From contig CM041777.1 in NCBI GenBank assembly GCA_023374045.1, positions 105,168,046-105,232,045 on the forward strand: DNA of 64,000 nucleotides. The letters are read 5' to 3'. The position numbers were made by a program, and so were the translations under genes. Shown here piece after piece: positions 1-31,074 of the stretch. The notes beneath the pieces were generated by a model. It did no database searches and was not told where the DNA came from. It saw nothing but the letters and a program-made list of their open reading frames with translations. Position 1 is the stretch's first letter; each line of letters begins with the position of its first letter. The stretch is from Limonium bicolor. Taxonomy: Eukaryota; Streptophyta; Magnoliopsida; Caryophyllales; Plumbaginaceae.

Positions 1-2818
1 TCCATAATTAACATGTTTCCAATTCCTAGCTATCCCACTCGATCATTACTGCGCAAGTGCAATACCAAAACACTCAGTCATACAGAGTGCAGAGGCGTAA
101 ACTCTTGACAGTAAATCCCTTATGTGATTGCAGTAGGAATTCACACTGAGTTCCTTATCACATAGTACCGACCATTGGCTTATTGCCCAGTCTGTGTATC
201 ATCACTTGCTTGCATGTCCACTGAGTTTAACTCATAACTGGTCTTATCTGTTACATTATCGTTTAACAACATTTATACAACGGTCGCTTGTTGCGCACCG
301 TGCTCTTACTTATTGTATAACACTAACTTACATGGTATTTACTGTCACACTAACTTCCACACATATACTTACATCATTCGTATTATGGTTCATCACTCAT
401 TTGGATGACTACTGAATGCTCCTTGAGCATTAATCATTCGAGTCACAAGCCGGCATTATTCAGCCAGGTGCTTCACTTTATACACATACTACTAAGCTAA
501 TTGCTCTCTTTCAATAATAACATCGTCCATCCTTAACATATTTCTTGAACTTGATTCACATAACTACCGCTCCTGCGGTCTCACAATGTCGAGAGGTATC
601 CCCACTCTTAATGCAGTGGTTCGTTCTCCACTCTATTCACTTATATAAGATAAACTTTTGCAATCAATCTAATTTATATAACATATCTTGCTTATGGCTT
701 ATAAGCCTTATTTGCCTTGAGCTGGGCTCATTGTAGGCTGTCCACACACATGTACTCCTCTGTACAACATTATATGGTTTGGATATTGTACTGAGCTCCA
801 TGACAAGGTCGTCGCATTCCGTTTCCTTTCATGGGATGCCCCTTAGGTTTGTCAGTCCGTCTCCTGACAACTTATGTCTAAACTGGGTGTTAGTTTCAAC
901 CCTTGTGTTTCTGTCATGCCATTTCGTGCAACAATTGTTGATGCGAACACCCCTCAAGGATTGCTCCTGGGTGTTGCTACGTTATGCCTTACATTTGTTT
1001 CACACTTATTGGTACATTCCATTAGCCACGCCGTTTGCGTTCTTAACTGGTTATTATCATTATCTTCTTCTGTGAAGATCAACATTTCCTGATAGTGTAG
1101 GTACTCATTCTGGGAGTTTCATCCCGTTCATTGCACATTAATGTGTCCACATTAGGCATTTCCTTAGCCATGGACAGGCTGGGTCTCCGTTCCAGCTAAC
1201 ATGTTTATCCCTGAGGATCCTTAAGACGTATACGATGTCTTTACATTACAGTTAGTGCACTTTGCACCTCCTGACTCTTAAGCATTTCCTTGAAAGGAAT
1301 TCACTAATTCCTTTAGTCTCGTCAACTTAACTGAGTTCCTTAACTTCAACCATTCCTTGTAATCTCTAGCTCTTGTTTGATTTATACTGCTGACCGTAGG
1401 CGGAGTCGACTACTTCCCGTGTTTCGGACTCTACTTGTATACATATGTGGGGTACCCTACTGATACATTACTACTTACCCAACTAACCCATAAGTAGGTC
1501 TGTCAGGCCCACAAGCTCCAATCGGAGTGCGGTCGTCCCACAATTCAGTTGGTACACTCGTAGTGTCCGTCACACGCCTAGGTGAAGCATTCTGTTGTCA
1601 ACTCCCTTATATTGTCCCGTGACAATATTCATTCCTTGCTTCCCGAACTTAATCGAGGGAAAGTTTATCCACTTTTGTATCTTTATCAACTACCCTTGGG
1701 TTTTCACTGGTTTGGTTTAAAAGAAGGTTAGAAAGAAGTGTTGGTTTGAAGGAAAATCTGGTTTTGAAAAGAAAAGGGTTTGAATAAATCTGGGTTGAAA
1801 GAAATTTTCATGGTTTCACAACATCTTCTTACCTTAACCAAGTCTAGCTTCTTGCTGACTGGTGTATTTACAATTACAAAGGTTAGGCTACCAAGCCCTT
1901 CCATGGTCATAATGATCCTGTTTAACTTCATGGTACTTTACTAAGTACTCTGTAGTGGTTATAAATTTCCCGAACAGCCCTGTTATAGCAGCACTTGCTA
2001 TGGCAAGTGCGCCATGCTAACTGGCTATCGGTTTAACACATACCGGTTGTGGTATTGTTTTTACCCATACTGTCATCAGTGGCCTTGTTGGCCCTCACTG
2101 ATCTTACTGCCTTGTCAATAACCCTTCTAGGTGACTTCTCACTGTCTTCACATGACGATCATCAACTAGGGTGTTTCCCATTCTGGGAGACCCCTTTTTC
2201 ATAGTCTTGTATTCACTTTGTAGCCCGTTCCACGTATTTGGGCACTACCTTGTAGTCTCCCTTGTCGGTTGGTATACCGTTGGTGTATTATTTATCAACT
2301 GTGGTTCCGTAGACACTCGTCTCGGGTTTCATGAATCCACTTCTTGCCTGTTGCACGGTAGGTGCGTTGCAAGCTGGTTATTCTCGACTGCTCTACATGT
2401 CGACCCAGGTTGTCGGAAATTCTATTCTCTTATACACAAAATCCTTCATTCTTCGCTATTAAATGCGGTTAACATCATTCAGATGGAGACCGTCTCCGGG
2501 ATTCCCAATTTTCAGGATCTACCGTATGACAGGTTCTCCGTACCCTAAAGGTATTTAATAACAGCCAGATCGGGTATTCCCGAGTATGAGAGTGGACTTC
2601 CATCTCTCTGGCGTTCTTTCCCAAGTTATCAAACAGGGATTGTGGAGGGTGGGATGGATATTGTAGGTTTCCAGTAGTCACTGGTAGTTCCTAACTAGCG
2701 TATCTCTCACGCTATCACTCAACCCTTAACCCAAAGTACTTAAATCCTAACTCGGTACTTCCCTCCTAAGCTCGGTAATTCAGTCATCAGAGCGATACTT
2801 CGCTCTGATACCACTTTT
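1..2818 (-). mobile_element. Element C, 5' part of interior (non-coding)
   Basis: Leader and interior of a minus-strand LTR retrotransposon whose 5' LTR lies at 2,819-7,366. The first bases on the minus strand are a tRNA-Met PBS. About 30-300 bases further in, short blocks resemble the interior starts of elements A (from 23,206) and B (31,503-31,660), for example GTACCGAGT and a block ending in CCCGATC-TGGC, so the three share ancestry. No Gag or Pol motif is visible on either strand; the longest open frames (for example 125 codons on plus, 2,171-2,548) show no family signature and look fortuitous. I infer a non-autonomous LARD-type derivative of a chromovirus-like Ty3/gypsy element. It continues off the left edge. 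Confidence 0.65.
2802..2813 (-). other. Primer-binding site of element C (tRNA-Met)
   Basis: Minus strand reads TGGTATCAGAGC, complementary to the 3' end of plant initiator tRNA-Met, five bases inside the LTR end at 2,819. This fixes the element's orientation as minus. The site lies in a perfect 9-bp inverted repeat (2,786-2,794 with 2,801-2,809; six-base loop), so half of the PBS would be paired in the RNA. Confidence 0.88.
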
Positions 2819-2897
2819 TGTAACACCCCATCCAACATTAACACACTTACAATAACTGCAGCGGAAATATAAACCTCATCACATTACTTAACTCGTT

Positions 2898-2932
2898 GGT
2901 GCTACACGCCGTTAGCCACCCACGTGGCTAAC
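2898..2932 (-). other. U5 hairpin and inverted copy of LTR end (C)
   Basis: 2,911-2,932 is a perfect 9-bp stem (GTTAGCCAC / GTGGCTAAC) with a four-base loop. 2,898-2,906 (GGTGCTACA on plus) is an inverted near-copy of the LTR terminus at 2,819-2,827; the only difference becomes a G-U pair in RNA. The same arrangement, with different stem bases, is found in the solo LTR, A, B and H. Confidence 0.75.
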
Positions 2933-4734
2933 AAGGCTAATCCATATACATTGTACCGGTCTGATGGGCTAAATTCCCGAGCAACTACACATTATTATCC
3001 CTTTCCATTAACAACAACAACACAACATACACCTTTCAACTATACCGAGTATTTATAAACTGATGCCGACAACAATATCGGTCTTACTACACCTACTGTA
3101 TATATACACTTAAATGAATACCCATGTACAATGACTACCCCGTCCTACTCTCGAACGGCTTCCAGCTCTCTGTACCTGAAATAGGAAAAGAAGAGAAAGG
3201 GTGGCCCCCAAGGGGCTCAGCACCTTTGCTGGTATGGTAATCCCGCAGCCCACATGCTACCGGGCCACGCACAACTAATTGTCGTCTTAGCATGCGATTG
3301 ATTATATTTAAATCATACATGCAACTGTAAACACACAACACATAACATTCCGCCTCAATGGGCTCAACAAACGGATAATACATCCTTATTTAATAAGTCA
3401 CTCACGGTATTCATTATCCCTAGAGTGTTCCTCCTCTAATGGAGCTACTTCTTTAATAGACGACACTTACCCTTAAATCGGGTTATCCTTAAACGCCTCT
3501 TATCACAAACTGGGAATCATATCCATGATCCACACACTCCACATTATACAACCTATAACATACACTACATACAACACTTAACAACACTTTGCACGTTTCC
3601 ACGTGCACAACATAATACCGCAATAGATATTGCATCACAACAAAAATACATAACATAATGGGAATGGTCCTCTTAGGAACCGACCCAAACATTGCTAATA
3701 CACTGGTGAGCCTAGAGAATGTTGCCAGTCTCATGATAAGCTCGTTACATAACTCGTTACCGTCTCGTTAAATGAACGGTTAACTTAACACAAGGTGTCT
3801 CGGATATAGTGATCCAAGCACACCGAACAAACATAACAATAGTATGCCCTGTGGCCCGACGTGAGTCAGTAATAGCCTTGGTTAAGCTAAAGGGAAGGTT
3901 GGGAACCAAATTGGAAAACAACCATAACATACAGAGAGGATCGAACCTGCTATGACAACGACCCCCATACTCACACGCGTGGCCGGAACAGACCGGACTC
4001 CTCACTCCCCCGTTAGCACTTGTTAGAAGTTCAACTTTGAACTTTATTAAACAATCACAAACATTGGGTTAAGTCTTGTTAGACACACACAAGGGAAGGA
4101 GAGTCATACATTCATACACCAACATCACACACAAACATTACATAACTAACTCACGCATAGCCGTGGTTAGAACGTTCCTTAGGTCGGAAACGTTATCACC
4201 GGATACCGTTCTCCTACGTTTACCTAATAGTGGTCAACTAGCCCTTCAAGCGCATTCGAGGTTACCGGTATCGACACGTAACATACAATAACAATAACGA
4301 CTGTAAACTCGTTTCATGATTTATCTCATAACGTGGTAAACATACAGAAAAACACATTGGCATACAAGCCGGTGTAATCCGGTAGGACACATGTTGCAAG
4401 AAAACCATACCTGTCACCGGAGTCCACTTATCATGTCCACTTATGTTCCTCGAGCAATTCTCGAACAACTGATAACATTACAATTACTTTTATAATATTG
4501 GGGTAACATGTTTGCTTAACGTTTAAAGCGCCCATAGTTTACCCCGTCATTCCCATTACACTTAACTTACTCTGTGATATTAAGTTTACAACTCTCACAT
4601 CAAACCCACACTTGTTTACACATTTTAAGGCCTTTATATGCTATCAAACAAGGCCTAAACATCACCTAAAACCATTACCATTAAATTCCCCATGATTAGA
4701 CATCATTTTCCAACCTTAAACAACATTTTTAGAG

Positions 4735-4917
4735 TGGTCCGGGACTTGGTCCTTACCTTAAGTCCCGGACCAACACATTAGAAACTCTCGGGCGATTTTA
4801 ATAGGGTGGTCCGGGACCTTGTACTTCCCTTAAGTCCCGGACCACAACATGTTACAACTCTCGGCCATTTTAAAAGCTTGGTCCGGGTCTTGAACCATGA
4901 CCTAGGTCCCGGACCAA
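4735..4917 (-). repeat. Three-unit hairpin array, 71-72 bp period
   Basis: Three GC-rich inverted repeats start at 4,735, 4,806 and 4,878. Stems are 13 bp (4,735-4,747 / 4,760-4,772), 12 bp (4,806-4,817 / 4,834-4,845) and 10 bp (4,878-4,887 / 4,908-4,917), all built on GGTCCGGGAC / GTCCCGGACC. The spacers are AT-rich and similar to one another. The array lies at about base 2,450-2,630 of the LTR in its sense orientation. The solo LTR has a four-unit array of the same period at the same place, with different stem sequences. Confidence 0.85.
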
Positions 4918-7366
4918 AGCTATAGAATTGTCAAAATTGCATTTTTCAAGTGTTGTTGCCTAGTTCTCCACCTCCATTAATTGTATAAACTTACCATATG
5001 ATCTTAGGTATATTCTAATGCCAAAATCCACTTCGATTCACCTTAAAACATAGTCCAACTTGTTACCCAATTTTCTTATACATACACCAACACTTATAAC
5101 ATTTGACTCTAGGTTTCTAAATGGTGTTTCTCACCTTTGATTACAACTATCCCAAAATGTTTCCTCCTTACCTTAACATCATCTCCCAAGCATCTTCTCT
5201 TACTAAACAAATCTCCTTTTCTCAACTTCCTAAAAGTTCCTTTCTCAAAACCTTACCTAAACATTATTCCCACCTTGCACATTATCATAATCTAAACCTT
5301 AAACAAACTCCTCCAAGACTTAAATACATCCTCAAAACACACATTGAATTCCTAGAACTTCCAAGATAACACCTAAGTCCTTGCATCACTCTAAATCACC
5401 TTACACATGTTTTCCTTCTCAAGTAAACCTTTATTCACCTTTAACACTTCCTAGTTCACCAAAACTTTCTTAAAACACTTAGAACTTCTCACACATTTCC
5501 CCAAATTTGGCCATAGCTTCTCTTGTATTTACTCACATCCAAACACTTAGGTTTTTACCTTATTTCATTCAAGAACACCTAAAATCCATCAAACACATTT
5601 TTATACACAAGACTTCACACATTTAGCACTACATCACAATATAGTGCATAACTTAAATTGCTTGACACTTAGGCCCTTAAACAACATGGCTCTTAGGCCC
5701 TTAAATTGCATAAACCTTAAACACTGAATTTCCCACATAAGTAATGCCTTTGACCTGCAAATACATACACCAATACATATGTTCTTTTCTAGTCTCCTTG
5801 AGAACACTTTACTAGGTCATTCACCATTTGCTCTTTAGGTAGTTTTAACAAGCATTATAAGCTTATTTCTCCTAAGGCATTAAACCACATTAAGATAGCA
5901 TATTTACCTCTTTTCCTCCCAAATTTCTTTCTTTTTTCCTTACAAAACCGGTAAGGCATTTGGTTCCTTGCCAACTACTAAACATTATACAAACAACATA
6001 ATGAGTATTCAAGCTTTAAGCTTCATCTCATTGTAAACCCTAGGTTTACATTATTTCAAAAACATTAATGTAGTTGTTTTACCTTAATCTTTGAAGGGTG
6101 TTTGAATATCTATGAAGAGAGGACTCCACCTAGTCCTTGAAAGATTCAAATGGAGCTAGAACAAAGCAACACAAGGAGCTCCATCAATGAATATTTTCGG
6201 TCACACACAAAACATGGAGGAAACTTGATTTTTCTTTGAGATTCCTTACCTAGGAGCAAAGGAGATCAATAATATGTGGAAAGACAAGATCAAGCCCCTT
6301 CAATGGTGGAACTCCATGGCACCAAAATGGGGCTCTTGAAGTTTTGAGAAGATAGGAATGAAGAGCTTGATGAGAGGAAGAGAATGGTGGTGTTTGTTTT
6401 TGATTTGGATAAGTGAGCTAGATTTTACAAGAGATCAAAGGTGGACTTCCATGGTGGTGGTGCTGTTTTTACGTGAGAGAACAGCAAGAAGAGAGGTTTA
6501 AGAGAGTGGAGCCATGTGAAATGAAGAGAGGAATGAGAGAAATGAGATAAGTTTGCTTTTTAGAAGATATTTGTGTTTATAAAGCAAATAGTAACTATAT
6601 TAGTCATCTTTATTTCTTTAACAAGTTAACAAGTGAGTGGTGAGTCACCACACTAAAGAAACCGGCCCCCTTTATTATAATGAGGGTGTTTTAGTCTTTG
6701 TTGACCAATTTAATTACTTATAACAACATATGTTACAAACTAGCTTATAAAACTTACTATTCATAAAAACAAGGCACATAGAAGTGAAATTTTGATTTCC
6801 CATTGATATAGACTTCTAAATGTGATACTATATAGTACACATGTTAATTAAAGAATGATGGACATTTAGCCATTCAAAACTCATTTACAAGACAATTTTT
6901 CAAAAACGTGCTTTAAGACTCCTTAAAGCACATTTTGTGTTTTAACTTGTTTTCAAGCTTGGTTTTCTTTGGTAATTGATTTAATATGTTCATTAACATA
7001 TTTATAAAGTATAGGTATGACCATTAGGTCTTATACACATTTATCCCAAGCTTAGAGCACATTTTGCTCATATTGACTTTAAGGTATTTTCTTGTGTTTT
7101 ATTTGGTTTAACTGTCCACCAAAGTTTCCTAAGGACTTATTTAGCCTTATTAAATCATAATTGAATACAATTAAGTCTTGGTAGGCTCTTTGGGTCCTAA
7201 CCAAGTTCACTCATAGCTTAGAGCATGTTTTTGCTCAAACTGTGTCTTAATGCTTTATTGCATTTACTATGGTCTAAATTGTTCACTGATGTTACTAAGG
7301 CACTTTTTAGCCTTTACATACCATAGTTTGATATTTAAACCACATATAAAGGTTTAGGGTATTTCA

Positions 7367-7378: not shown

Positions 7379-9611
7379 TGATAAGTGCGGAATTTATCTA
7401 TATTTCTACGCTTAATATGATTAATATTTTATTGGTTTATATGATAAATTCCTTACTTATGTTATTTTATGTTATATGCGAAGAACTCCCCTTATTTGTG
7501 GTTTATGCTTAAACACGTTAAAAACACTGAAGAAAAGGTCAACAAATGTGTGCCTAAGAGCTTAACATATGCATTCCCGGACCACATATAATGCTCGCGT
7601 TTTAGAAAGGAGATTGAGCTCAACAAACTGTGCGCATGCACGAGCCATGCACATCATCGTACAACGGAGCTGGGCTTGCACTTGACAATTGCACGTCTTG
7701 AATTGTTGCTGGGCTTGAGGCGGCGCCATGCACTCCAATTTCGGAAGTCTGGATTGGCGCAGACATTTTCTTACAGTGGCGCAGACATGGATTAGAGGCG
7801 CAGACTTCTCACCGACATGCGCTGACTTTCACGAGTGCACATTAGCATGACCATGGTTTATCAATATCGGCTGCATGGACTTAAGGACAGACACACTCAT
7901 GACATGTTCTGACAATTTATTTATTCTTTTGGGCAAGGGGCCAGCACGACAAAACAATTGGTGCAGAGCTTCTTCAGGCGTAGACTTTGCCGAGAGGAAT
8001 TGGGCCGCATGGATATACATACATGCACAGCATGCACGACAAGAGAATGGAGCCGCAATGCCATGGACAATATTTGGGCTGCTTTGCTCGACTGATCAGA
8101 GGCGCAGGCTTTTGTTGACCGACATCTAAAATCAGAAGCAGCAGCTCTCGTAGGCTTGCAGGAGTAGCATTGGGCTAATACTATTTTGGAAAGGAACATT
8201 ACATGCACACGTGGACAAGGGGACAACCGAATTGATTGCAAAAGAGATAGCAGACGTTCATTGTTGTCCCTGGTCCGACAAACACACCGAAGCCACATGA
8301 CATGGGCTGCATGTGTTGACATTGGCCACATCAACATCCAATTACGGAATCCAGCACATTCACGAATATTCCACCGCGAGGGAGTATTATTTATGGAGCA
8401 TATATGTATGTATTAGACATGGAGAGATGGGCATAAAGAATCTTGCAGCGCACCACATTCCACATGAAGAATTGTCTCTACACACACATGATGCACACAA
8501 ACATAGGCGCAGAGGTGCAGACATGCTCGTGAATTATTAATTTTGACATGGATCTGCACTTGAAGAGAATTGATTAATAATTTAATCAATCTTTAACAAC
8601 TTGGACCAGCGTGATTGAAGGGAGAAAAGCGACAAAAACCAATTTGGATGGTTTTGATATTATTTTTGTACCGATCATGAGAGCAGCATAAATAGGTATT
8701 CGACACTCGGGCAATGGGAGGGGAGAAGAGAAAGAATTCGAATACATCACATACGAGGAGAAATTCTCAAACCCAAGACAGAGTCGTTCGAGAGCCGCGC
8801 AGCACACCAAGTCAGACAGAGGGAAGCTATCAGTCAGTCATGACAGGCCGGAGCAGAAGGTAGAGAGTGGATTCATCATCGTTCTTCAATTAGATGACGT
8901 TTTATAATCTCTTAATTACTGTTATTATTTCTTTGTCTCCGATGTCTGAGTAATTGTTAGAATTCTGGTTTTATTATGGACAACTAGTTTATTATTTTTC
9001 TTTCTGAGTTGTTAAATATAAATTCTATATAGATTGTAGTTTTGTTCCTAGTTATTCATTGAATTCTCTTGTGATTAATTATTGCTTGAGTTTATTTGGT
9101 ATGAATTGCTTACAAGTGAGAACTGCGGCGTTCATTAGACCATAGGAATATTACCAGTGAAACTACAGATAGTAATTCCTGGGGATTAGCTGACTAGAAA
9201 CCAGATGAACTATTAATGCTACTAGTTAATTTGGAAATTCGTAACGAGAGTTAGGATTTGGGAGTTGCTAGTAAGAATCTATCTTGCGGGAGACCAGTTT
9301 TAGATTAATTTAGATCTGAGGTTGCAATCTAGAATTTAGAAAACACTCAGGAAGGGAATTGATAAACTAGAGAGAAGTAGTAAACCAGGATTCACTTTTT
9401 AGATTTATTAGAAACTCACTTTTAATTGTTTTTATTATTTATTGAATTTCTGCAACCAAACCCCCAAGTTTACTGTTGTTATTTTCCTTAAGTAGATTAA
9501 AGACTCAAACTAGACACAACCTCCTTTGGTTCGATAACCTAGGGAATACTACCTAGGAAAACTTGCTACGACAGACCAGTACACTTACTGCAATACGTTT
9601 AAACTCGAACA
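7379..9611 (+). mobile_element. 5' LTR of element E
   Basis: LTR of 2,233 bp starting TGATAAGTGCGG and ending CTCGAACA, followed after six bases by a tRNA-Asp PBS. Its last 1,873 bases recur nearly unchanged at 40,541-42,412. A TATA-like stretch is at 8,688-8,697. The decanucleotide-like motif GGCGCAGAC recurs at 7,756, 7,778 and 7,797, with variants near 8,101 and 8,506. Open frames of 60-140 codons on both strands between 7,829 and 8,540 overlap one another and have no known motif, so I do not call genes there. Confidence 0.85.
8688..8697 (+). promoter_or_regulatory. TATA-like box of LTR E
   Basis: CATAAATAGG, followed about 30 bases later by a purine-rich stretch that could be the start of R. 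It is unchanged in the other LTR copy at 41,473-41,482. Confidence 0.4.
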
Positions 9612-12290: not shown

Positions 12291-12592
12291 TGAAATACCC
12301 CGAATAATTAACAGTCCAAATTCGTGATGGTTAAATTTAATTATGAGTAACCTTTATGATCATACAACTAAACGCGACAGGATTAACCGAAAATAACACG
12401 TATATACATAAGCAGTAACGGGGCATAATAGAATAGTTGTGGGTATATATACATATACGACTAACAATGTGACAAAATAAAATAGTTGCGTATATAACTA
12501 ATAACGCGACATATCATATAGTCGCTCATATATGTACAAGTATACAAAAAATAGTCATGTATATAACTGATACAAGTAAAAAAAAAGAGCAA

Positions 12593-12672
12593 GTGCGCTC
12601 CCGTCGGGGTTTGAACCCAGTACCCTTCGTACCCACTTTGAATGCCTTTACCGATTGAGCTGGTGCTCATAT
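12593..12672 (-). other. Antisense tRNA-like module in LTR A
   Basis: On the minus strand an A-box-like AGCTCAATCGG (plus 12,651-12,661) is followed about 33 bases later by a B box GGTTCAAACCC (plus 12,607-12,617), the spacing of tRNA genes and tRNA-derived SINEs. The D-arm and T-arm are not well formed and no CCA is seen, so this is not a tRNA gene. It lies about 60 bases upstream of the TATA box and points away from it. The sister copy is at 26,617-26,696 and a related one is in LTR B. Confidence 0.6.
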
Positions 12673-12730
12673 TCAATAACATGATGTACCACTTAACTCT
12701 AATGACTCACTACACTACTTACCTGTATAA

Positions 12731-12738
12731 TATAAAAG
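12731..12738 (+). promoter_or_regulatory. TATA box of LTR A (5' copy)
   Basis: TATAAAAG, kept in the 3' copy at 26,754-26,761. Transcription would start near 12,760-12,770. It is the best TATA match in the first kilobase of the LTR. Confidence 0.5.
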
Positions 12739-14049
12739 GATTAACAATTAATCAGCCCCACTCTGGAGGTGTCCGAAACTCCAACCGATCAGCCATGTAT
12801 TACATTGATATATTAAGCTACTCATTAATCTATCCAATTCCTCAACAATGCTAACTTTTCCCCTGTTCCAATCGTTGCCACTTGCTCCTCCATCGCGTGA
12901 GTCTGTAGCCTAGTCAACAGACCACTCCATCCCTTCCATCCTTCCCATGCAAGTTGTCTTCCCTACTCTCCAAACCAATATCCCCATTCCTTCTCGCAGA
13001 TGTGAACTTCGATTTTCTATACCCACGCAACCCCTCACCTTCTCCCAGTGGTTCCCGATGCATGCAAGTCCAGAGGAGGACAGTGAACTCGGGAACATCC
13101 CAATCCAACACCAAGCTTCTACATTGTCAAGCCCAGACCTTACATGCAAACCTACGGGTGGAATATTGGAGGTTCTGGAGCAAGGATTCCCCGTGCCTGC
13201 TCATGTTCTGCGCAAGGTAGGAACTACCGATCACTTTCCTCTTACTTCTGTCCTCTGTTGCGTTGATTTCTTTGTCCAGTTCTGCCCGAGAACTCTGTTT
13301 AATCTCATATTGTTTTTTTTGCGATTCGCACTTGATCCTAGCTGGAGAACCAGCTGGTGGGATCCCTGAAGTTGTGAACAGAATCCTCTACGCAATTCTT
13401 GGAGGCCAGACCGAGAAACCAGTAAGCTGACTGTTTAAACTCCTTCCACCCCCTCAATTGTTTTCCGAAACATCAGTGTTAACTTCCACCTCCTTGTCTA
13501 ACCTGTGCATGCATGAAGTCCACCTGGAAAACCGATGCAATGTTGTGCAAAAAAAAAACACCCAGAAACTGATCCCAAACTGCGATCCAAGGTAAGGTAA
13601 TGAACTGACATATCCTGTGTATTCTGTTCCTGTTGTTTTTAAACACCACTAAAGACAACACCTAATCTGGAATCTTCTCCTTGTGCATGGCCGGTTGTAA
13701 AGCCAAGGTTCCCTAGTCCAACCACAAACCAAAACAGCAAGGAAAACCCAGCTTGAACTACTTAAGGTTGTTGACTAAACTCATAGCTATTTTGTGTTTG
13801 GAAATCTGATGTATTATGTCGATGTGGTAACCCTCAGCTTGTTCTTGGTCGTGTCTGAAAACTAAACTAGGACCTGTTTGATCTGCTATTCGTAGGTTTA
13901 TTGTCCAACATGCCAACAAATGACAAAAAAAAAAAAACTGGTTGAGTAAAAGGATTGATAGGAGAGTCTAAGGGTGGTAATCAGATCAGATCAGAGCCGT
14001 GTAGTGTATATCCCAGTTCTGGAAAGTTTGAATATTTGTGACGTGAGAA

Positions 14050-16151
14050 CTATGATAGGTAAGCTGGTATAGAAATGAGATTCAAATTCTGTAGCTTATA
14101 CCTCTATGCAAACGAGTTCCAGGAACAGTAGTAAGGTGAAATTGATTGAATGATAAGCTTAAGAACTTGATAACAAGTTGAGATAATTGTAAATAAGTCC
14201 GGGATGTGATAGAAACCAGAAAACACATTAGTAAGTGAAAGAAGAAGTAGTGTGCAGGAACATGTTTCAGTCTGCAGTCTTTCCGGTTTCTGTTGTTCTT
14301 CAACATTCAGTTTCCGTATGATAAATTTTCTGTGGCAATAGCAATGCTGCCGTGAGTTTACATTGAGAGCAAAGCTATGTCAAGACTGTTAACTGAAGTT
14401 AAACAAACTGGGGAACATAACAATCAGATTAATGAATGAAAGTAAAAACAGCAGAAGGAAAGGATATCAGTTTTAGTTAGTTTTCAGTTTCTGAAACTTT
14501 ATGCTGTGTGTATTAACTTCCTGAAATAACCTAGACGCTGTAATAACTTAATGACAGTTCTAAGAGATTACTAAAACGTGAGACTAAGCGTAACAACAAC
14601 AAAAAAAAAACTACTCAGGTTGTGTTTCAGTTCTTGGTCAATTTCAGTTTCAGTAATATGAAGTTCAGTGCCTTTAACCAAGCTGTTTTGGGTTGTTTTG
14701 AGGTTGAAAACTTATTTAAAACACTTAACTCAATAACTTGATAATGTGGGGAAAGTAAGAACCAGATCAATGGATGCACAAACAAAAAAAAGTAGAAGAA
14801 GAAAAGAATACAGCAGCTCAGGTTTAAACGTCTGCAAGCTTGGGCCTTTCTGTACAGGGACTTTCCAAAGGCTTAATAACGGTTGTATTATCGGGGAAAT
14901 GAATCTGAACTCATGCTAACCTATCAACCTACATGTAAATAAGATGGGGAAAACAGAAAACAGATAAGGGAGCAGAAAATAATAGACAAGAAACACCAAT
15001 TCAAGAGTTCCTGCTTTCTTGCAGTTTCAGTTTTCTTGTAAGTTCTGGCCAGTTTCAGAATTAGGCAGTGTCAGTAGCGGTAACAGATTTGTATTGGAGT
15101 TAAAAACTTGATTAACACTAAGCTAAGTATTAGGAAATCTAGAGAAAAAACTAGAGGCCAAGTTCTTGAATAGACAGAAGAAGAAGATAAGAGGAGAAGA
15201 TGACAGTTTTAGATTTCGATTCCTGTAGCTGTGTTCTGATTTCTGTTTAAGAGCTTTCAGAGGTTTGGTCCTTGCTACTTGGGATTGTTTAAAGATTTAA
15301 AACTATATCGAGACATGTAACTAAATAGGTAAACAAGCGGGGGGAAACTATCAGTCAGGTTATGCAACAGAAATGGAAAATGGAAGTAAATCTTATCAGA
15401 TTTTTCTGTTTCAGTTTTTCATTGTTCTTGTTTCAGTTTGGTATGACTGCGTACAGAGGATTAGGAGAAGCTGTACTGAGTTGTTAATGACCTTAAAACG
15501 TTACTAATATACCTAAGTCAGTCTATGAGTTTTGGGGAGAAGTTAAGGGGCAGGTGAATAATGAAACAGAAAGAAAACCAGAAGAGCATAACTCACCAGT
15601 TTCTAATATTGGTTTCTGCAGATTTTTGTGTGTTTCAGTATAAGAATGTTTTAGTGGAATTAACAGTGTTGTTTTTGGGTGTTTCTGAGTTGGAAATCTT
15701 GCTAAGACACTTAGCTAGTTGGGTAAACACCTTGGGGAAAATTAGAAGTCAGTTTAACTAACTAAAAGAAGGAATGAAGAAGAAACATACAGATTGGGTT
15801 TTCGGATTTTCTGTAATTTGCTGTCTTTGTATAATGGTAATATAGATGGTATGAGAGGGTTGAAGTGGCCTGGAAAGGAACTTAAAACTGTGATAATACA
15901 TCTATCTAAGAGTTTAAACACTTTGGGAAAATTAGGAATCAATCTAATGCAATAAAAGAGGAGTTGGAATGGAAGTATTCACATGTTTGATGTTTCAGTT
16001 CACTGAAACTTGTGCCTCTGCATGATCGATTTCCAGAGGTGTTAAGAATGGGGTGTTGGTCTAATAATGAACCTAAACCATTACTAGTACACTTAGTTGA
16101 GTTGGTAAAACATTTTGGGAGAGTTAGACATCAGTTTGGCACATTAAAGGT
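14050..16151 (+). repeat. Decayed ~195-bp tandem repeats in LTR A
   Basis: A recurring block (two to four runs of TTTCAGTTT, then a motif like ACTTAGCTGAGTTGGTAAACA, then TTTGGGGAAA and AGACATCAG-TTAA) returns at about 14,740, 14,937, 15,140, 15,333, 15,525, 15,725, 15,915 and 16,105, spacings of 190-203 bases. Units are strongly diverged; the array was found by reading phase, not from identity. The same array is in the 3' LTR (to 30,188) and in LTR B. Confidence 0.65.
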
Positions 16152-18558
16152 TGAAATACCCCAAACCTTGATATGTGGTTTAAATATCAAATTATGGTGT
16201 GTAAGGGCTAAAAAGTGCCTTAGTAACATCAGTGAACAATTTAAACCATAATAAATGCAATAAAGCATTAAGACACAGTTGAGCAAAAAACATGCTCTAA
16301 GCTATGAGTGAACTTGGTTAGGACCCAAAGAGCCTACCAAGACTTGATAACAATTAATTATGATTTAATAAGGCTAAGTAAGTCCTTAAGAACTTTGGTG
16401 GACAGTTAAACCAAATAAACATAAGAAAATACCTTAAAGTCAATATGAGCAAAATGTGCTCTAAGCTTGGGGTGAATGTGTAAGACCTAATGGTCATATC
16501 TATACCTTATAAATATGTTAATGAACATATTGAATCAATTACCAAAGAAAACCAAGCTTGAAAACAAGTTAAACACAAAATGTGCTTTAAGGAGTCTTAA
16601 AGCACGTTTTTGAAAAATTGTCTTGTAAATGAGTTTTGAATGGCTAAATGTCCACATTACTCTTTAATTAACATGTGTACTATATAGTATCACATTTGGG
16701 TGGCCATATTAGTGGAAATCAAAAATTTCACTTCTATGTGCCTTGTATTTGTGAATAGTAATTTTTACAAGCTAGTGTATAACATATGTTATGTTAAGTA
16801 ATTAAATTGACAAACAAAGACTAAAATACCCTTGTTATATTAAAGGGGGCCGGTTTTTGTAGTGAGGAGTCACCAAGTATGTTAACTTGTTAAGTAAATA
16901 ATGTGACTCATAGTTACTATTTGCTTTAAGACTTAAATATCTTCAAAAAGTAAGTTCTATCTTCATTCTCCCTTCCTTCCTTCATTTCCCACGGTTCCAA
17001 ACACCACCACCAACCTCTCTTCTTCATTCTCTCTCGGTAATACCACTACCTCCATTAGAACTCAAGCTTTGAACTCTTGTCAAATCTTGCTCTCTTGTCC
17101 AAATCAAAAACAAACACCACCATTCTCTTAGTTAAGCCAAGCTCTACACTCTTGTCTCTTCAAAACTTCAAAACCTCCATTTCGGTGCCAAGAGAAACCA
17201 CCATGGGAGGAGCTTGAGCTCACCTTTTCACATATTCATGCTCTCCTTTGCTTCAAGGTAAGGAAACTCAAAGAAAATCCATGTTTCCTCCATGTTTTTC
17301 ATGTTGTCCGAAAATTCCCTCACAATGGTGTATTTATCTTGCTTGTTTTAGCTTCATTTGAATCTTATTCCAAGGCTAAGAGGGTCCTCTCTTGATACTT
17401 TTCAAGTTCTCTTCCAATTCCAAGGTAAAACAATTACCTTAATGTGTTAAAACAATATTTTTAACTAGGGTTTACAATGAGATAAAGCTTAAAGCTTATA
17501 TACTCATTTTAATGTTGGTATATTGTTTAGTTTTTGGCAAGGAACCAATACCTTACCTTTTTCAAAGAAACAAGAAAGAAAGTTGTGATGGGAAAAGAGG
17601 AAGAAACAAACTATTCTCAATGTAGTTTAAGTGCCTTAGGAAAATGAGCTTGATTTGCTTGATAAAATAATACCTAAGGAGCCAATGGTGAGTGACCTAG
17701 TAAAGTGTTCTCAAGGAGACTAGTAAAAGAAACATATGTTTTGGTGTATGTATTTGCAGGTCAAAGGCATTATTTTGTGGGAAATTCGTGTTTTTAGGTA
17801 TTATGCATTTTAAGGGCCTAAGAGCCATGTTATTTAAGGCCTAAGTGCCAAGCAATTTAAGTTATGCACTATATTGTGATGTAGTGCTTAATGTGTGAAG
17901 GTGTGTATAAAAATGTGTTTGATGGATTTTGGGTGTTTTGAATGAAATAAGGTAAAAACCTAAGTGTTTGGATGTGGGTAATACTAGAGAAGCTATGGCC
18001 AATTTGGGAAATGTGTAAGAAGTTCTAAGTGTTTGTAAGTGAGTTTTGTGAACATAGGAAGTGTAAAGGTGAATGAATGTTTACTTGAGAGAAAACATGT
18101 TTTAAGGTGATTTAGATTGATGCAAGGATTTAGGTGTTGCCTTGGAAGTTCTAGGAATCCAATGTGTGTCTTGTGAATGTATTAAAGTCTTGGAGGAGTT
18201 GTTTAAGGTTTAGGTAAGATTGATTTCAAGGAACGAGTGATGTTAGGTATGTATGTGAAAAGGAGATTTAGTTAGTAAGAAAAGAAGTTGAGGAATGATG
18301 ATAAGGTGTAGAGGAAACACCTTGGTATTGTGATCATTATAGGTGAAATGCCACCTAGGAATCATAAGGAGAAAACATTGTAAGTGTTAGGAATTTTGTG
18401 GAGCATAAGTAAAGGTTTAAGGAATTAGGAAAAATAGTTTTGTGAGTGTTTAAGAATATCTTAAGGGTGTGTTTGAAGTGCCAAATGGTGTTAGAACACA
18501 TTAAGAGCTTAGGAGAAGTTTGGTGAAGATTTGGCAAAGTTTTGGTAAGTTTAGAAGG

Positions 18559-18800
18559 CGACCGACCCAGGGGCCGACCCAGTTTTTGGTCGGTCGAGCC
18601 TCTGTTAAATGTTAGGAAAGTGTTCGTAATGGTCCGACCCAAAAGGGTGGTCGGACATGGGTCGGTCGGTCAGGTTTTAAAGGAAGGAAAATGTTCGCAC
18701 ATGGACCGACCCAGAATGGTGGGTCGGACGTGGGTCGGACGGGCATGTTTGTAAGGAAGTAAAAGGGTCTGTAATGGACCGACCCAGCTGTGGGTCGGTC
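18559..18800 (+). repeat. Four-unit hairpin array, 71-74 bp period
   Basis: Inverted repeats start at 18,559, 18,632, 18,706 and 18,777. Stems: 9 bp CGACCGACC / GGTCGGTCG (18,588-18,596), 8 bp GTCCGACC / GGTCGGAC (18,649-18,656), 8 bp CCGACCCA / TGGGTCGG (18,720-18,727), and 10 bp GACCGACCCA / TGGGTCGGTC (18,791-18,800). The array occupies the same place in the LTR as the GGTCCGGGAC array of LTR C and has the same period, but the stem bases are different. It is GC- and CpG-rich in AT-rich surroundings. Confidence 0.85.
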
Positions 18801-20600
18801 GGTGGGTCGGACGGACCAAAAAACATGGTTTAAGGTTATGAAATGATTTGTGATGATGGGGATTGGTAGGTAATGATGTTATAAGGATGTTGAGGACATG
18901 TTAGGGGAGTTTTAATGACACCTAAGTGGGTTAAAAGTTGTATTAAAATGTGAGAGTAAACAAGTTAAAAAAAAATGTTTAAGTTATGTAACTAAGTTAA
19001 CGGGAAAAATTAAGCATTGACATTAAATGATCAAGCAAACCCCGATGTTAATGAAAACCGTGTGATGTTAACAGTTGTTCGAGAATTGCTCGAGGAACAT
19101 AAATGGACAGGATAAGTGGACTCCGGTGACAGGTATGGTTTTCTTGCCAACCTTGTCCTAACGGATTACACCGCTTGTATGCCAATGTGTTTTTCTGTAT
19201 GTTTGCCACGTTATGAGATAAATCATGAAACGAGTTTACAGTTGTTATTGTTATTGTATGTTACGTGACGATACCGGTAACCTCTAATGCGCTTGAAGGG
19301 CTAGTTAACCACTATTAGGTAAACGTAAGAGAACGGTATCCGGTAACACGTTTCCGACTTAAGGAACGTTCTAACCACGGCTATGCGTGAGTTGGTTATG
19401 TGATGTTTGTGCGTGATGTTTGTATGTGAATGTATGACTCTCTTTTCCCTTGTGTATGTCTGACAAGACTTAACTCAATGTTTGTGATTGTTTAATAAAG
19501 TTCAAAGAGAACTTCTAATAAGTGCTAACGGGGGGAATGAGGAGTCCGGTCTGTTCCGGCCACGCGTGTGAGTATGGGGGTCGTTGTCATAGCAGGTTCG
19601 ATCCTCTCTGTATGTATTGGTTGTTTTCCAATTTGGTTCCCAACCTTCCCTTTAGCTTAACCAAGGCTATTACTGACTCACGTCGGGCCACAGGGGCATA
19701 CTATTGTTTGTTTTGTTTCGGTGTGCTTGGATCACTATATCCGAGACACCTTGTGTTAAGTTAACCGTCCATTTAACGAGACGGTAACGAGTTATGTAAC
19801 GAGCTTATCATGAGACTGGCAACAATCTCTAGGCTCACCAGTGTGTTAGTGATGTTTGGGGTCGGTTCCTGAGAGGACCATTCCCGTTATGTTATGTGTT
19901 TGTTGTGATGCAAATCTATTGCGATGTTATGTTGTGCACATGGAAACGTGCAAAGTGTTGTTAAGTGTTGTTATGTAGAGTATGTTATATGTTGTAAAAT
20001 GTGAAGTGTGTGGATCATGGATATGATTCCCATTGGTGATAAAAGGCGTTAAAGGATACCCGATTTAAGGGTATGTGTCGTCTATTAAGGAAGTAGCTCC
20101 GTTGGAGGAGAAACACTCTAGGGTGATGAATACCATGGGTGACTTGTTAAGTAGGATGTATTATCCGATTGTTGAGCCCATTGAGGCGAAATGTTAAGTG
20201 TTGTGTGTTCATTGTCACATGCATGATTTAATATAATCAACTGCATGCTAAGACGACATTAGTTGTGCGTGGCCCGGTAGCATGTGGGCTGCGGGATTAC
20301 CATACCAGCAAAGGTGCTGAGCCCCTGGGGCCACCCCTTTCTCTCTTTTCCTATTTCAGGTACGAAGTGCTGGAAGCCGTTCGAGAGTAGGACGGGTAGT
20401 CGTTGTACATGGGTAAACATTTAGTGTATATATACAGTAGGTGTAGTAATACCGATGTTGTTGTCGGCACCAGTTTATAATAAATACTCGGTATAGTTGA
20501 TAAGGTGTGTATTATTGTTGTTGTTATGGAAGGGATAATAATGTATAGTTGCTCGGGAATTTAGCCCATCAGACCGGTACATTGTGTATGTATTAGCCTT

Positions 20601-20635
20601 GTTAGCCACGTGGGTGGCTAACGGCGTGTAACACC
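20601..20635 (+). other. U5 hairpin and inverted copy of LTR end (solo LTR)
   Basis: 20,601-20,622 is a 9-bp stem GTTAGCCAC / GTGGCTAAC with loop GTGG. TGTAACACC at 20,627-20,635 is the exact reverse complement of the terminal GGTGTTACA at 20,704-20,712. Confidence 0.8.
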
Positions 20636-21593
20636 AACGAGTAAGTAATGTGATGAGGTTGTTCTTCGCTGCAGTTTGTTGTAAGTATGTTAATGTTGGA
20701 TGGGGTGTTACAAAGGTGAAGCTAGATAAAGGTTAACACAGATATTGTGTCTCGGATGCGGTAACTTATGGCTTCTGTACACATGTTTTAGGAGTATTCT
20801 AAAGATTATAATTCTATGATAATAGGTTTAAACAGTACTAACCTATATAGCTAAGGGGGGATACGTCTTAGGCGATATAACTCCTTGCTAGTAACCTGTC
20901 ACAAGGTGGTGCGTAAAATACTCTAAACATTTGTTAACGAGAGGACTTAGATAACGTGTAAACGTCATTATAAATGCCCTAGAAGCAAATAAAGTTTAGG
21001 GCTAATACTTGGAAAGTCCTAAGGGCCACTATAAGTTTAGCATCCAAAAGTTCATCTAGGGAATAACACCCGGTATAAATGAGATAAACTAGAACAGTGT
21101 CATCACATGAAATCATGAACTGACACATTATTTTGAATCAACGTTAGGTCCGTAACGAACGCAATCGAGACCCCGTGTGTGAGACGACACATGCTTCTGA
21201 ATAAGGTATGGACATGTGTGGTTCATATGTTGCCGTGTTACACGGCTTGTGTGCTGTGTGCCTTGTTTGTTTATGACCACAAGACTAATGCATGAAATGG
21301 ATGTTTGTTTTACCAGTGCTTATTTGTCTGGTGGGAGCTTGTGTAAGGCTTGTGAATGGATTGATTATTTTCCTTGCTTACCTGCTTGCTATTATTGTGC
21401 ATATTGCTTGCGCGCGTACACAGTAGTGTAGTCCCTTCTCGTTGATGAATCCTTGAGATGAAATATAACAAACTTCGTAAACAAACCAAGGAACTACAAA
21501 GGGAAAAAACTCCTCTTAACTATAGAGGACCTCTAAAGACACCCACTATAGTGTCGAATTATCAAAGGTAATGATAAGCCAATACCTTTAGAA

Positions 21594-22230
21594 ATGAGTA
21601 GGGAGACAGACCCTTTGTATCCGGGGTAGAGACCATTTATCTAAAAAGGAATAGGGAGACGGACCCTTTGTATCCGGGGTAGAGACCATTAATCTAAAAA
21701 AAAGAATAGGGAGACGGACCCTTGTATCCCGGGGTAGAGACCAATAAGATTAAAAGAATAGGGAGACGGACCCTTTGTATCCGGGGTAGAGACCAGAACA
21801 TTGAGAAGGAATAGGGAGACAGACCCTTTGTATCCGGGGTAGAGACCAATAAGATTAAAAGGAATAGGGAGACGGACCCTTTGTATCCGGGGTAGAGACC
21901 AGAACATTGAGAAGGAATAGGGATACGGACCCTTTGTATCCGGGGTAGAGACCAATAAGATTAAAAGGAATAGGGAGACGGACCCTTTGTATCCGGGGTA
22001 GAGACCAGAACATTGAGAAGGAATAGGGAGACAGACCCTTTGTATCCAGAGCAGCGGCTAGTAACATTGAGAAGGAATAGGGAGACGGACCCTTCGTATC
22101 CGGGGTAGAGACCAGAACATCAAAAGGAATAGGGAGACGGACCCTTTGTATCCGGGGCAGAGGCTAGTAACATTGAAAAGGAATAGGGAGACGGACCCTT
22201 GGTATCCGGGGCAGTGGCTAGTAACATTTA
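21594..22230 (+). repeat. 53-bp tandem repeat array in LTR A (5' copy)
   Basis: About eleven to twelve units of roughly 53 bp with core GGAATAGGGAGACGGACCC followed by TTTGTATCCGGGGTAGAGACC and one of two alternating tails (AGAACATTGAGAA or AATAAGATTAAAA). The last units switch to CCGGGGCAGAGGCTAGTAACATT. Long minus-strand frames across it only mirror the repeat. Confidence 0.88.
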
Positions 22231-22734
22231 AAAACAACAGAGAGAGAAAGAGCTATCCGGGAATGGAGGATCAGCTATGAAGAAGACGTTCTCCAAATGG
22301 TGGTGATAAGAGGATTCGCAAATAACCCTTAAAGAAACAAGGAAAGACTAGTACCTACATGAGATGGTCACGGGATCTAAACTATATCCCCAGACCTGGT
22401 ACAAGGAAAGAGAAAGAAAATACACTTTACGGGAACAAGAGAAAAGAAATGAAAACACCACACTCGTATGATCCTATAGTGAGGGTCATGGGTATAATAT
22501 ACCTATGCACACGTTTTATTACTTACATGATTGTTGTTGCTATACTAGCAGCTCGTTGTGCTTGGTTGCGTGTTTGATGTGCTATGATGCCAGCATGTTA
22601 TGCTTGGATGATTGTTGATATTGCTATGCTACCTAAAAATGTGTATGATATCATGATATATTGTGGTGTGCTTTACTGCTTTATTATAGCATGTAAATTG
22701 ACTTAATAATATTCGACCAAGTAGTCGTGTGGCC

Positions 22735-22782
22735 CGGTAACATACGGGCTACACACGTTCATACTCAGCGTAGTTTGCTGAG
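22735..22782 (+). other. Paired dyads before LTR A 3' end
   Basis: GCCCG / CGGGC around a short loop, then CTCAGC (22,764-22,769) / GCTGAG (22,777-22,782), followed by a pyrimidine-rich run and ACAGGTA. The same order (GGCCCGGTA, GGGCT, CAGC/GCTG, pyrimidines, CAGGTA) is seen in the solo LTR near 20,270-20,362 and in LTR B near 38,220-38,300. Possibly an RNA-processing or polyadenylation region; the role is inferred. Confidence 0.5.
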
Positions 22783-23064
22783 TCCTTTACAACCCAATTT
22801 TTACAGGTATTGTGCCGGACGATAACAGAGCGTAGGCGGGATGGCTACCATGGGGGTAGTCCATCAGGGCATGACTTTTAAGTTGTAGTAGTATGTGTAA
22901 TATATGGGTTGATACTAAACCCGAGATGTAATTCTTAGTTTATGATTTGTAATTTTGTTGTAGACACTCGGTAATTGGGAATTGTACTATGTATTGTTTA
23001 TGAGTTTGTATTGAGGGTTGTTTCCAGTCATGCAGACCGTAACTTGGTGTTGGTAATGTGGTCT

Positions 23065-23099
23065 GTCAACCACGTGGGTGGTTGGCATCTGTGACACCC
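23065..23099 (+). other. U5 hairpin and inverted copy of LTR end (A)
   Basis: 9-pair stem GTCAACCAC / GTGGTTGGC (one G-T pair) with loop GTGG, then TGTGACACCC at 23,090-23,099, which pairs with the terminal GGGTGTTACA at 23,179-23,188 with one G-U. Confidence 0.75.
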
Positions 23100-23193
23100 G
23101 AATGATGTTGAGAATCCGCTGCATAGTTGTCTTGTATTAAGGCTAGGAGCTTATTTGTACTACTGGATGTTTATTCGGGGGTGTTACAGAAAG

Positions 23194-28059: not shown

Positions 28060-30188
28060 TTGTGACGTGAGAACTATGATAGGTAAGCTGGTATAGAAAT
28101 GAGATTCAAATTCTGTAGCTTATACCTCTGTGCAAACGAGTTCCAGGAACAGTAGTAAGGTGAAATTGATTGAATGATAAGCTTAAGAACTTGTTAACAA
28201 GTTGGGATAATTGTAAATAAGCCTGGGATGTGATAGAAACCAGAAAACAATTAGTAAGTGAAAGAAGAAGTAGTGTGCAGGAACATGTTTCAGTCTGCAG
28301 TCTTTCCGGTTTCTGTTGTTCTGCAACATTCAGTTTCCGTATGATAAATTTTCTGTGGCAATAGCAATGCTGCCGTGAGTTTACATTGAGAGCAAAGCTA
28401 TGTCAAGACTGTTAACTGAAGTTAAACAAACTGGGGAACATAACAATCAGATTAATGAATGAAAGTAAAAACAGCAGAAGGAAAGGATATCAGTTTTAGT
28501 TAGTTTTCAGTTTCTAAACTTTATATGCTGCTATGTATTAACTTCCTGAAATAACCTAGACGCTGTAATAACTTAATGACAGTTCTAAGAGATTACTAAA
28601 ACGTGAGACTAAGCGTAACAACAAAAAAAAAAACTACTCAGGTTGTGTTTCAGTTCTTGGTCAATTTCAGTTTCAGTAATATGAAGTTCAGTGCCTTTAA
28701 CCAAGCTGTTTTGGGCTGTTTTGAGGTTGAAAACTTATTTAACGCACTTAACTCAATAACTTGACAATGTGGGGGAAAGTAAGAACCAGATCAATGGATG
28801 CACAAACAAAAAAAACAGTAGAAGAAGAAAAGAATACAGCAGTTCAGGTTTAAACGTCTGCAAGCTTGGGCCTTTCTGTACAGGGACTTTCCAAAGGCTT
28901 AATAACGGTTGTATTATCGGGGAAATGAATCTGAACTCATGCTAACCTATCAACCTACATGTAAATAAGATGGGGAAAACAGAAAACAGATAAGGGAGCA
29001 GAAAGGAAATAATAGACAAGAATGCACCAATTCAAGAGTTCCTGCTTTCTTGCAGTTTCAGTTTTCTTGTAAGTTCTGGCCAGTTTCAGAATTAGGCAGT
29101 GTCAGTAGCGGTAACAGATTTGTATTGGAGTTAAAACCTTGATTAACACTAAGCTAAGTATTAGGAAATCTAGAGAAAAAAAACTAGAGGCCAAGTTCTT
29201 GAATAGACAGAAGAAGAAGATAAGAGGAGAAGATGGCAGTTTTAGATTTCGATTCTTGTAGCTGTGTTCTGATTTTTGTTTATAAGCTTTCAGAGGTGTG
29301 GTCCTTGCTACTTGTGATTGTTTAAAGATTTAAAACTATATCGAGACATGTAACTAAATAGGTAAACAAGCGGGGGGAAACTATCAGTCAGGTTATGCAA
29401 CAGAAATGGAAAATGGAAGTAAATCTTATCAGATTTTTCTGTTTCAGTTTTTCATTGTTCTTGTTTCAGTTTTGGTATGACTGCGTACAGAGGGATTAGG
29501 AGAAGCTGTACTGAGTTGTTAATGACCTTAAAACGTTACTAATATACCTAAGTCAGTCTCTATGAGTTTTGGGGAGAAGTTAAGGGGCAGGTTAATAATG
29601 AAACAGAAAGAAAACCAGAAGAGCATAACTCACCAGTTTCTAATATCGGTTTCTGCAGATTCTTGTGTGTTCAGTATAAGAATGTTTTAGTGGAATTAAC
29701 AGTGTTGTTTTTGGGTGTTTCTGAGTTGGAAATCTTGCTAAGACACTTAGCTAGTTGGGTAAACACCTTGGGGAAAATTAGAAGTCAGTTTAACTAACTA
29801 AAAGAAGGAATGAAGAAGAAACATACAGATTGGGTTTTTGGATTTTCTGTAATTTGCTGTCTCTGTATAACGGTAATATAGATGGTATGAGAAGGTTGAA
29901 GTGGCCTGGAAAGGAACTTAAAACTGTGATAATACATCTATCTAAGAGTTTAAACACTTTGGGAAAAATTAGGAATCAATCTAATGCAATAAAAGAGGAG
30001 TTGGAATGGAAGTATTCACATGTTTGATGTTTCAGTTCACTGAAACTTGTGCCTCTGCATGATCGATTTCCAGAGGTGTTACGAATGGGGCGTTGGTCTA
30101 ATAATGAACCCAAACCATTACTAGTACACTTAGATGAGTTGGTAAAACATTTTGGGAGAGTTAGACATCAGTTTGGCACATTAAAGGT
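28060..30188 (+). repeat. Decayed ~195-bp tandem repeats, 3' copy
   Basis: Sister of the array at 14,050-16,151, with the same unit order and small indels. It is uninterrupted here and shows the target sequence CACATTAAAGGTGAAGC that the solo LTR split in the 5' copy. Confidence 0.65.
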
Positions 30189-31074
30189 GAAGCTAGATAA
30201 AGGTATACACATATATTGTGTCTCGGATGCGGTAACTTATGGCTTCTGTACAAACATGTTTTAGGAGTATTCTAAAGATTATAATTCTATGATAATAGGT
30301 TTAATACAGTACTAACCTATATAGCTAAGGGGGGGATACGTCTTAGGCGATATAAACTCCTTCTTAGGTAACCTGTCACAAGGTGGTGCGTAAAATACTC
30401 TAAACATTTGTTAACGAGAGGACTTAGCTAACGTGTAAAACGTCATTATAAATGCCCTAAAAGCAACATAAAGTTTAGGGCTAATACTTGGAAAGTCCTA
30501 AGGGCCACTATAAGTTTAGCATCCAAAAGTTCATCTAGGGAATAACACCCGGTATAAATGAGATAAACTAGAACAATGTCATCACATGAAATCATGAACT
30601 GACACATTATTTTGAATCAACGTTAGGTCCGTAACGAATGCAATCGAGACCCCGTGTGTGAGACGACACATGCTTCTGAATAAGGTATGGACATGTGTGG
30701 TTCGTATGTTGCCGTGTTACATGGCTTGTGTGCTGTGTGCCTTGTTTGTTTATGACCACAAGACTAATGCATGAAAACAGATGTTTGTTTAACCATGCTT
30801 ATTTGTCTGGTGGGAGCTTGTGTAAGGCTTGTGAATGGATTGATTATTTTCCTTGCTTACCTGCTTGCTATTATTGTGCATATTGCTTGCGCGCACACAA
30901 TAGTGTAGTCCCTTCTCGTTGATGAATCCTTGAGATGAAATACAACAAACTTCGTAAACAAAACCAAGGAACTACATAAGGGAAAAACTCCTCTTAACTA
31001 TAGAGGACCTCTAAAGACACCCACTATGGAATCGAATTATCTAAGGTAATGATAAGCCAATACCTTTAGAAATG

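Follow-up and report, generated by a model that had tools for sequence, protein, structure and literature searches.

Arrays of inverted 10-bp words differ as sets between subfamilies of a long-LTR element in Limonium bicolor

Long-LTR elements and word arrays in the window

The window analyzed here, a 64,000-nucleotide stretch of the Limonium bicolor genome (2.92 Gb; C2:105168046-105232045), contains two LTRs of one long-LTR family, LTR C and a solo LTR, together with copies of a second long-LTR family (Table 1). LTR C is adjoined by the primer site TGGTATCAGAGC, which we take to match the initiator tRNA-Met (a tRNA-Met-type primer site), and is therefore the 5' LTR of its element, which extends leftwards beyond the window edge. 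On the same strand, 23 kb to the left of LTR C, a C-type copy of nearly identical sequence (C2:105149522-105149921) may be the other LTR of this element, with nested insertions. The solo LTR is a clean insertion, since AAGGT stands on both sides of it and a second copy of its target is empty. Its TATA-like stretch and AATAAA would place the transcription start about 1.6 kb downstream of the array, which would then belong to U3.

Table 1. Positions of the features in the window
Feature	Position	Strand	Remarks
Internal region of the LTR C element	1..2814	minus	No coding domain in the pieces scanned
Primer-binding site adjoining LTR C	2802..2813	minus	Read from sequence
LTR C	2819..7366	minus	4548 bp, TG...CA; basis, ends and homology to the solo LTR
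C-type array	4735..4917	minus	Word GTCCGGGACT; three inverted word pairs, 4735-4772, 4807-4844, and 4879-4916
Direct repeat pair	7733-9611 and 40536-42412		97% identical
Second-family LTR	12291-23188		About 6.3 kb once the nested solo LTR is subtracted; followed by TGGTATCAGAGC
Target-site duplication AAGGT, left	16147..16151	plus	From sequence
Solo LTR	16152..20712	plus	4561 bp; nested in the second-family LTR
S-type array	18560..18813	plus	Four units; words GACCGACCCA and GTCCGACCCA
TATA-like stretch in the solo LTR	20427..20434	plus	Sequence read by eye; AATAAA at 20479
Target-site duplication AAGGT, right	20713..20717	plus	From sequence
53-bp arrays of the second family	21592-22211, 31070-31507, 37330-37771, and 38686-39217		8, 5, 8, and 6 CGGA-N(4-12)-TCCG palindromes, respectively
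Empty copy of the solo-LTR target	about 30183-30188		Without insertion
Insertion in the second copy	31508-38665		About 7.2 kb; older copy inside
Two overlapping open frames	47022-48103		RRM match and weak DUF4283 match

The LTR ends (TGAAATACCC...GGGTGTTACA) and primer site of the second family are the same as those of the first. The second-family LTR that surrounds the solo LTR contains a 53-bp tandem array with eight CGGA...TCCG palindromes, and the solo LTR showed no match at E 1e-3 to two pieces taken from that family's second copy, indicating that two LTR families without detectable similarity in the pieces compared both carry palindromic CCG/CGG arrays. The insertion listed in Table 1 apparently splits the 53-bp array belonging to the family's second copy. 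Elsewhere in the window lie a direct repeat pair and two overlapping open frames, which are probably a LINE-type first frame.

The word pairs of LTR C are spaced 72 bp apart and have arms of GGTCCGGGAC, with GGTCCGGGTC as the third-pair arm at 4879. Units of the solo-LTR array are 72 to 73 bp apart, with two reverse words in three units and two forward words in the first. Folding is far better for both arrays than for their dinucleotide shuffles (z -5.96 and -5.45, with 0 of 200 shuffles as good), and both lie between homologous parts of their LTRs, so the hairpin arrays that the initial annotation described are real and do agree in LTR position and period. A search of the window against Rfam gave no match. 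Of two short patterns compared with IMG/VR, one matched nothing and the other matched two contigs that lack LTR homology and were dismissed as chance.

Aligned end to end and scored in 100-column windows, LTR C and the solo LTR are 87 to 100% identical over the first 700 columns and 64 to 96% identical over the next 1,400, where several windows fall at 64 to 77%. A low-identity block (38 to 67%) then extends for about 900 columns around the array and is wider than the array itself, and identity is 88 to 98% from there to near the 3' end. By local alignment with 300 shuffles, homology between the two LTRs is clear downstream of the array (z 12.1) and weak upstream (z 1.9), and none is detectable between the C and S arrays, spacers included (z 0.7). 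The initial annotation had taken the spacers to be homologous and had named unrelated arrays, with nonhomologous spacers and different insertion points, as the contrary case; for this pair, spacer homology is undetectable, but the LTR position is equal. Because the two LTRs are so distant and the low-identity block so wide, array-specific change is inseparable from divergence of the block in this pair, and closer subfamilies were therefore compared across the genome, which settle that array-specific change occurs.

Word types at one LTR position across the genome

As an anchor we used 28 conserved bases of the LTR that lie downstream of the array; with up to 2 mismatches they occur at 10,322 places in the genome, as opposed to 0 for the reversed control. 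Word types were tallied in 90 copies (L041 to L130), all on contig C1 and drawn from the first 100 of the 10,322 anchor places; copies fetched by similarity (L003 to L040 and L132 to L138) were left out of the tally. A second anchor, which excluded the common type, had 227 places, and 12 copies (L139 to L150), chosen partly for variant anchors, were examined among the 100 of them listed.

At least six word types occur at this one LTR position: GTCCGGGACT, GACCGACCCA, GTCCGACCCA, GTCCGAACTT, GACCGACCTT, and GACCGCCCCT. The S type, GACCGACCCA with some GTCCGACCCA, accounts for 78 of the 90 copies, variants L050 and L111 included. The remainder are four S2 copies with GTCCGACCCA throughout, three N copies (GTCCGAACTT), three M copies (GACCGACCTT mixed with GACCGAACTT), and two C copies (GTCCGGGACT), which have five units (L065) and three units (L074). 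The 12 copies chosen outside the common type comprised 6 N-like, 1 M, 1 S2-like, 2 L111-like, and 2 of type G (GACCGCCCCT). Each word has the form G(A or T)CCG followed by five variable bases, such that the GWCCG half is constant and the other half switches with the subfamily. Several types are separated by one to three bases, and the C word may be read as the inner site of N with one G added. Agreement within an array can be nearly complete; in an S2 copy (L085), 12 of 13 core matches are the identical 10-mer, and the 13th is a spacer match of other sequence. Some arrays are mixed and look like intermediate steps: those of M combine ACC with AAC words, and those of S combine GACCG with GTCCG. 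The sequence RCCGAC, which we take to be the dehydration-response core, was rejected as a common explanation, being present in S and M words and absent from N, C, and G.

The array comprises two to five units, most of which consist of one 10-bp word in forward and reverse orientation, with starts 23 to 29 bp apart. In six fully measured arrays and in L118, the outer forward and reverse starts are 23 to 28 bp apart and unit starts are 63 to 74 bp apart, mostly 70 to 74 (leaving out the gap at a missed unit in L118). When pairs with identical variable halves were scanned at separations of 8 to 60 bp in 105 copies (the 90 and 12 above plus LTR C, the solo LTR, and L137), they occurred only at 13 to 18 bp (inner) or 23 to 29 bp (outer), most often at 16 and 27 bp. 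A search by core only, for GWCCG...CGGWC at 24 to 28 bp, recovered 361 pairs in 100 of the 105 copies, mostly related S copies; this range misses type G, whose pairs are spaced 23 bp, as well as the L111-like copies, and the copies without a pair are L111, L140, L141, L146, and L149. The variable halves of these 361 pairs, which the search left free, were perfectly complementary in 313 cases and off by one to three bases in 48, and none differed by four or more. From type to type, the loops differ in size and the reverse words in number. The wider sample thus bears out the earlier claim that arm sequences differ between arrays and that both arms have changed together.

Nine pairs of copies were aligned, with the division into upstream, array, and downstream parts and the sums set by us. 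Between an M copy (L119) and an S2 copy (L085), identities are 282/319 upstream, 187/314 in the array, and 264/289 downstream; between the S variant L050 and an N copy (L076), they are 359/402, 99/198, and 263/304. In these two close type pairs, flank identity is therefore 87 to 91%, as opposed to 50 to 60% for the array, and, going from M to S2, corresponding positions change in the forward word and the two reverse words of the last unit. Different behavior appears elsewhere: upstream of its array, the C copy L065 gives a poor alignment to L076 and, in part, to L074, and in two N copies (L076 and L118) the first half of the array agrees better than the sequence just upstream. These contrasts indicate that change in the array can outpace change in the flanks, and that a word type can in turn persist when the flank upstream of it has changed.

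One further copy (L137; C8:60903500-60904130) combines parts of two subfamilies. Its array and upstream flank are 98% identical to the C-type copy L074 over 455 bp, and its downstream flank is 96.5% identical to the N-type copy L076 (172 aligned positions), as against 90% to L074 over only the first 52 positions. A C array has thus joined the LTR of another subfamily, and the chimera would most simply have arisen by recombination near the array end. A similar partial-match pattern appears in 14 of 40 among the matches listed (L137, the one whose sequence was examined, and 13 others).

The internal regions of C and S elements are related: the 2.8 kb in the window is 89 to 91% identical over about 1.2 kb to a 2-kb piece of an S-type element (L131). 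In 16 neighboring same-strand pairs checked, anchors are spaced 9.2 to 9.5 kb apart, with one exception at 7.9 kb, implying an internal region of about 4.85 kb. Ten stop-to-stop pieces, drawn from about 3.6 kb of this estimated length, contain no Pfam domain scoring above the cutoff, and on that examined portion the element looks like a large retrotransposon derivative (LARD). At C2:369853245-369929147, eight same-strand anchor matches follow one another with six of seven steps of about 9.5 kb and one of about 18.9 kb, perhaps a tandem run of elements with common LTRs.

Changes in words and their possible causes

The inheritance of substitutions was compared in 76 plain S copies by counting those present in a single copy against those common to at least three. 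The counts are 55:9 in words, 49:43 in the remainder of the array, and 111:109 in the flanks (Fisher P = 1.5e-5 for words against the array remainder and 1.4e-7 for words against the flanks, both optimistic because the copies are related and include LTR pairs of the same element). Substitutions in exactly two copies, of which there were 4 in words, 23 in the array remainder, and 49 in the flanks, were left out. Single-copy substitutions mostly arose after insertion, with sequencing error added, and their frequency is similar in words (55 in 120 columns), array remainder (49 in 137), and flanks (111 in 319). A substitution common to three or more copies must have passed through a source element.

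Differences between units were counted in the six arrays in which all units were found, leaving out N2 (L118, three of four units found). The arms were defined by position, since a site mask defined by regular expression favors identity by construction. The core of the arm differs at 11 of 410 positions and its variable half at 41 of 410, for 52 of 820 in the arms as a whole, compared with 347 of 791 in the spacers, so that units of one array do mostly agree, as the initial annotation had stated. The depletion of inherited changes, along with the uniformity of the words, agrees with purifying selection acting on words as lineages amplify. Part of the depletion could also arise, without functional selection, if word copies within a source element convert one another.

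Whether selection sees a hairpin or a word can be asked from the arms of individual units. There is no pairing signal at the unit level: variable halves differ at 12 of 125 positions within units and at 45 of 410 between units, with two of the six arrays uniform and hence uninformative. Since two arms from the same unit resemble each other no more closely than arms taken from separate units, recognition of the word is favored over pairing of the hairpin. At its second base the word has A-A or T-T across the dyad, hence no match, in 139 of the 361 pairs, mostly from related S copies; the other 222 match, somewhat above the roughly 195 expected from base frequencies by our calculation. Permuting the distinct variable-half combinations gave a mean of 2.44 matches and a maximum of 7, against 4 of 26 observed, in a list dominated by mutation variants. 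The balance favors a word recognized in both orientations, but only modestly, given that two arrays of the six show no variation. Of the selection for hairpins proposed earlier, selection finds a sign in the depletion of inherited changes in words, and the hairpin as the selected entity finds no support, there being no pairing signal within units.

We see about an even chance that the words are sites for a DNA-binding protein whose recognized sequence has changed between subfamilies, within an array of two to five units held at a fixed place. This reading starts from the observed position, geometry, word types, agreement of units, scarcity of inherited changes in words, and one array with a foreign downstream flank. 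Selection would act through protein-DNA recognition in the U3 promoter region, a new word might spread through the array as units are duplicated and converted in the course of reverse transcription or recombination, and the reverse-complement arms would form a dyad of sites, with the hairpin as a by-product. Because the internal region examined yielded no domain, a self-encoded binding protein was not seen. The regular forward/reverse geometry speaks against this reading in that it is also expected of structured RNA or DNA. The hairpins themselves could be selected, through pairing in single-stranded DNA or at the 3' end of the transcript, where U3 precedes R, with effects on RNA stability, packaging, or dimerization; the folding of both window arrays, the correspondence of forward and reverse words in every type, the recurrent forward-then-reverse order and spacing, and the slight excess of second-base matches would all follow. 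This is nevertheless unlikely given the lack of excess complementarity at the unit level, the A-A or T-T second bases in over a third of the (mostly related S) pairs, and the differences in loop size and number of reverse words between types.

A mutational process alone, in which slippage duplicates units, fold-back template switching copies arm to arm, and the words drift without function, would account for word differences that are array-wide, for the mixed arrays, and for the variable number of units, and reverse transcription permits template switching. We consider it quite unlikely, since words are homogenized and the spacers of the same units are not, since word length, core, and spacing are nearly constant across types, and since inherited variants are depleted specifically in words. 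Escape from silencing, with the array as a source or target of small RNAs and new words spreading by evading the existing ones, agrees with the turnover of words in this LTR family and with maize Sireviruses, whose palindromes are described, in the portions of the sources available, as highly variable small-RNA hotspots (PMC5311732, PMC10760457). It appears improbable, however, in that evasion alone would not be expected to leave a constant GWCCG half and near-fixed spacing. Going beyond the binding-site reading, it is conceivable, though doubtful, that the array is a subfamily identity code in a noncoding retrotransposon, built of paired 10-bp sites with a constant and a switchable half and rewritten as a set when a trans-acting factor, from the host or a partner element, changes. 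If so, subfamilies would evade control or acquire it word by word.

Relation to known systems

LARDs have LTRs of about 4.5 kb around a noncoding internal region. The present LTRs, at 4548 and 4561 bp, are alike in length, and the internal region of about 4.85 kb differs. To our knowledge, no switching U3 array is known for LARDs, and a literature search, covering best-ranked titles and the openings of abstracts, returned no description of LARD-like elements whose word arrays switch set-wise. With about ten thousand LTR places, a single genome holds a natural record of the set-wise replacement of regulatory words, and the array is a substrate for asking whether control regions turn over through selection by binding proteins, silencing, or copying errors.

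Sireviruses (Ty1/copia) have LTRs with multicopy palindromic motifs of CGG-CCG core upstream of TATA, which were reported, in the part of the article available to us, as Sirevirus specific (PMC2829016); the accessible portions of later accounts describe palindrome-rich regions of maize Sireviruses as small-RNA hotspots of high sequence variability (PMC5311732, PMC10760457) and place palindromic cis-regulatory repeat arrays in other transposable element families as well (PMC10760457). As far as these sources extend, the present array is similar in having many short palindromic motifs with a CCG/CGG core upstream of a TATA (here read by eye), with high identity within an element and different sequences between elements. 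Unlike the Sirevirus repeated motifs, LTR C has only six outer words, compared with the eight reported, and compact CGG-CCG palindromes of 10 to 20 bp are replaced by CCG...CGG dyads of about 33 to 38 bp; only the N-type inner site, GTCCGGAC, resembles the CGG-then-CCG order. The CGGA-N(4-12)-TCCG core of the second family in the window also resembles the Sirevirus motifs. At the 3' LTR, Sireviruses have clustered polypurine tracts and a distinctive attachment site. They carry a copia-type gag-pol (often with env), whereas no Pfam domain was found here in the ten pieces from about 3.6 of about 4.85 kb, and six word types occupy one site in one LTR family.

In VANDAL elements, motif arrays change rapidly and are recognized by the VANC protein that the elements encode (PMC5735166, PMC10398659); this protein also removes silencing. 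Like the motifs of VANDAL21 in Arabidopsis, as described in the parts of these sources available, the present words are short, noncoding, and tandem, change together in an array, and diverge quickly between relatives. Unlike them, they are paired as inverted words, an arrangement that those parts do not describe, and no coding domain, such as the VANC protein would provide, was seen in the part examined. Subfamilies of Tnt1 and Retrolyc1 have most of their sequence in common and differ in the U3 regulatory region (PMC1838419). The subfamilies here are likewise similar outside a U3 that was assigned by eye, both in the LTR flanks and in the internal region (89 to 91% over about 1.2 kb between C and S), but the difference is concentrated in an array of constant frame, whereas the available part of the Tnt1 account describes no word pairs at fixed spacing. 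By analogy, the present array would work in outline like the Sirevirus, VANDAL, and Tnt1 systems, while departing from the Sirevirus motif order. The array also suggests that palindromic CCG/CGG arrays, reported in 2010 as specific to Sireviruses, occur in other long-LTR elements.
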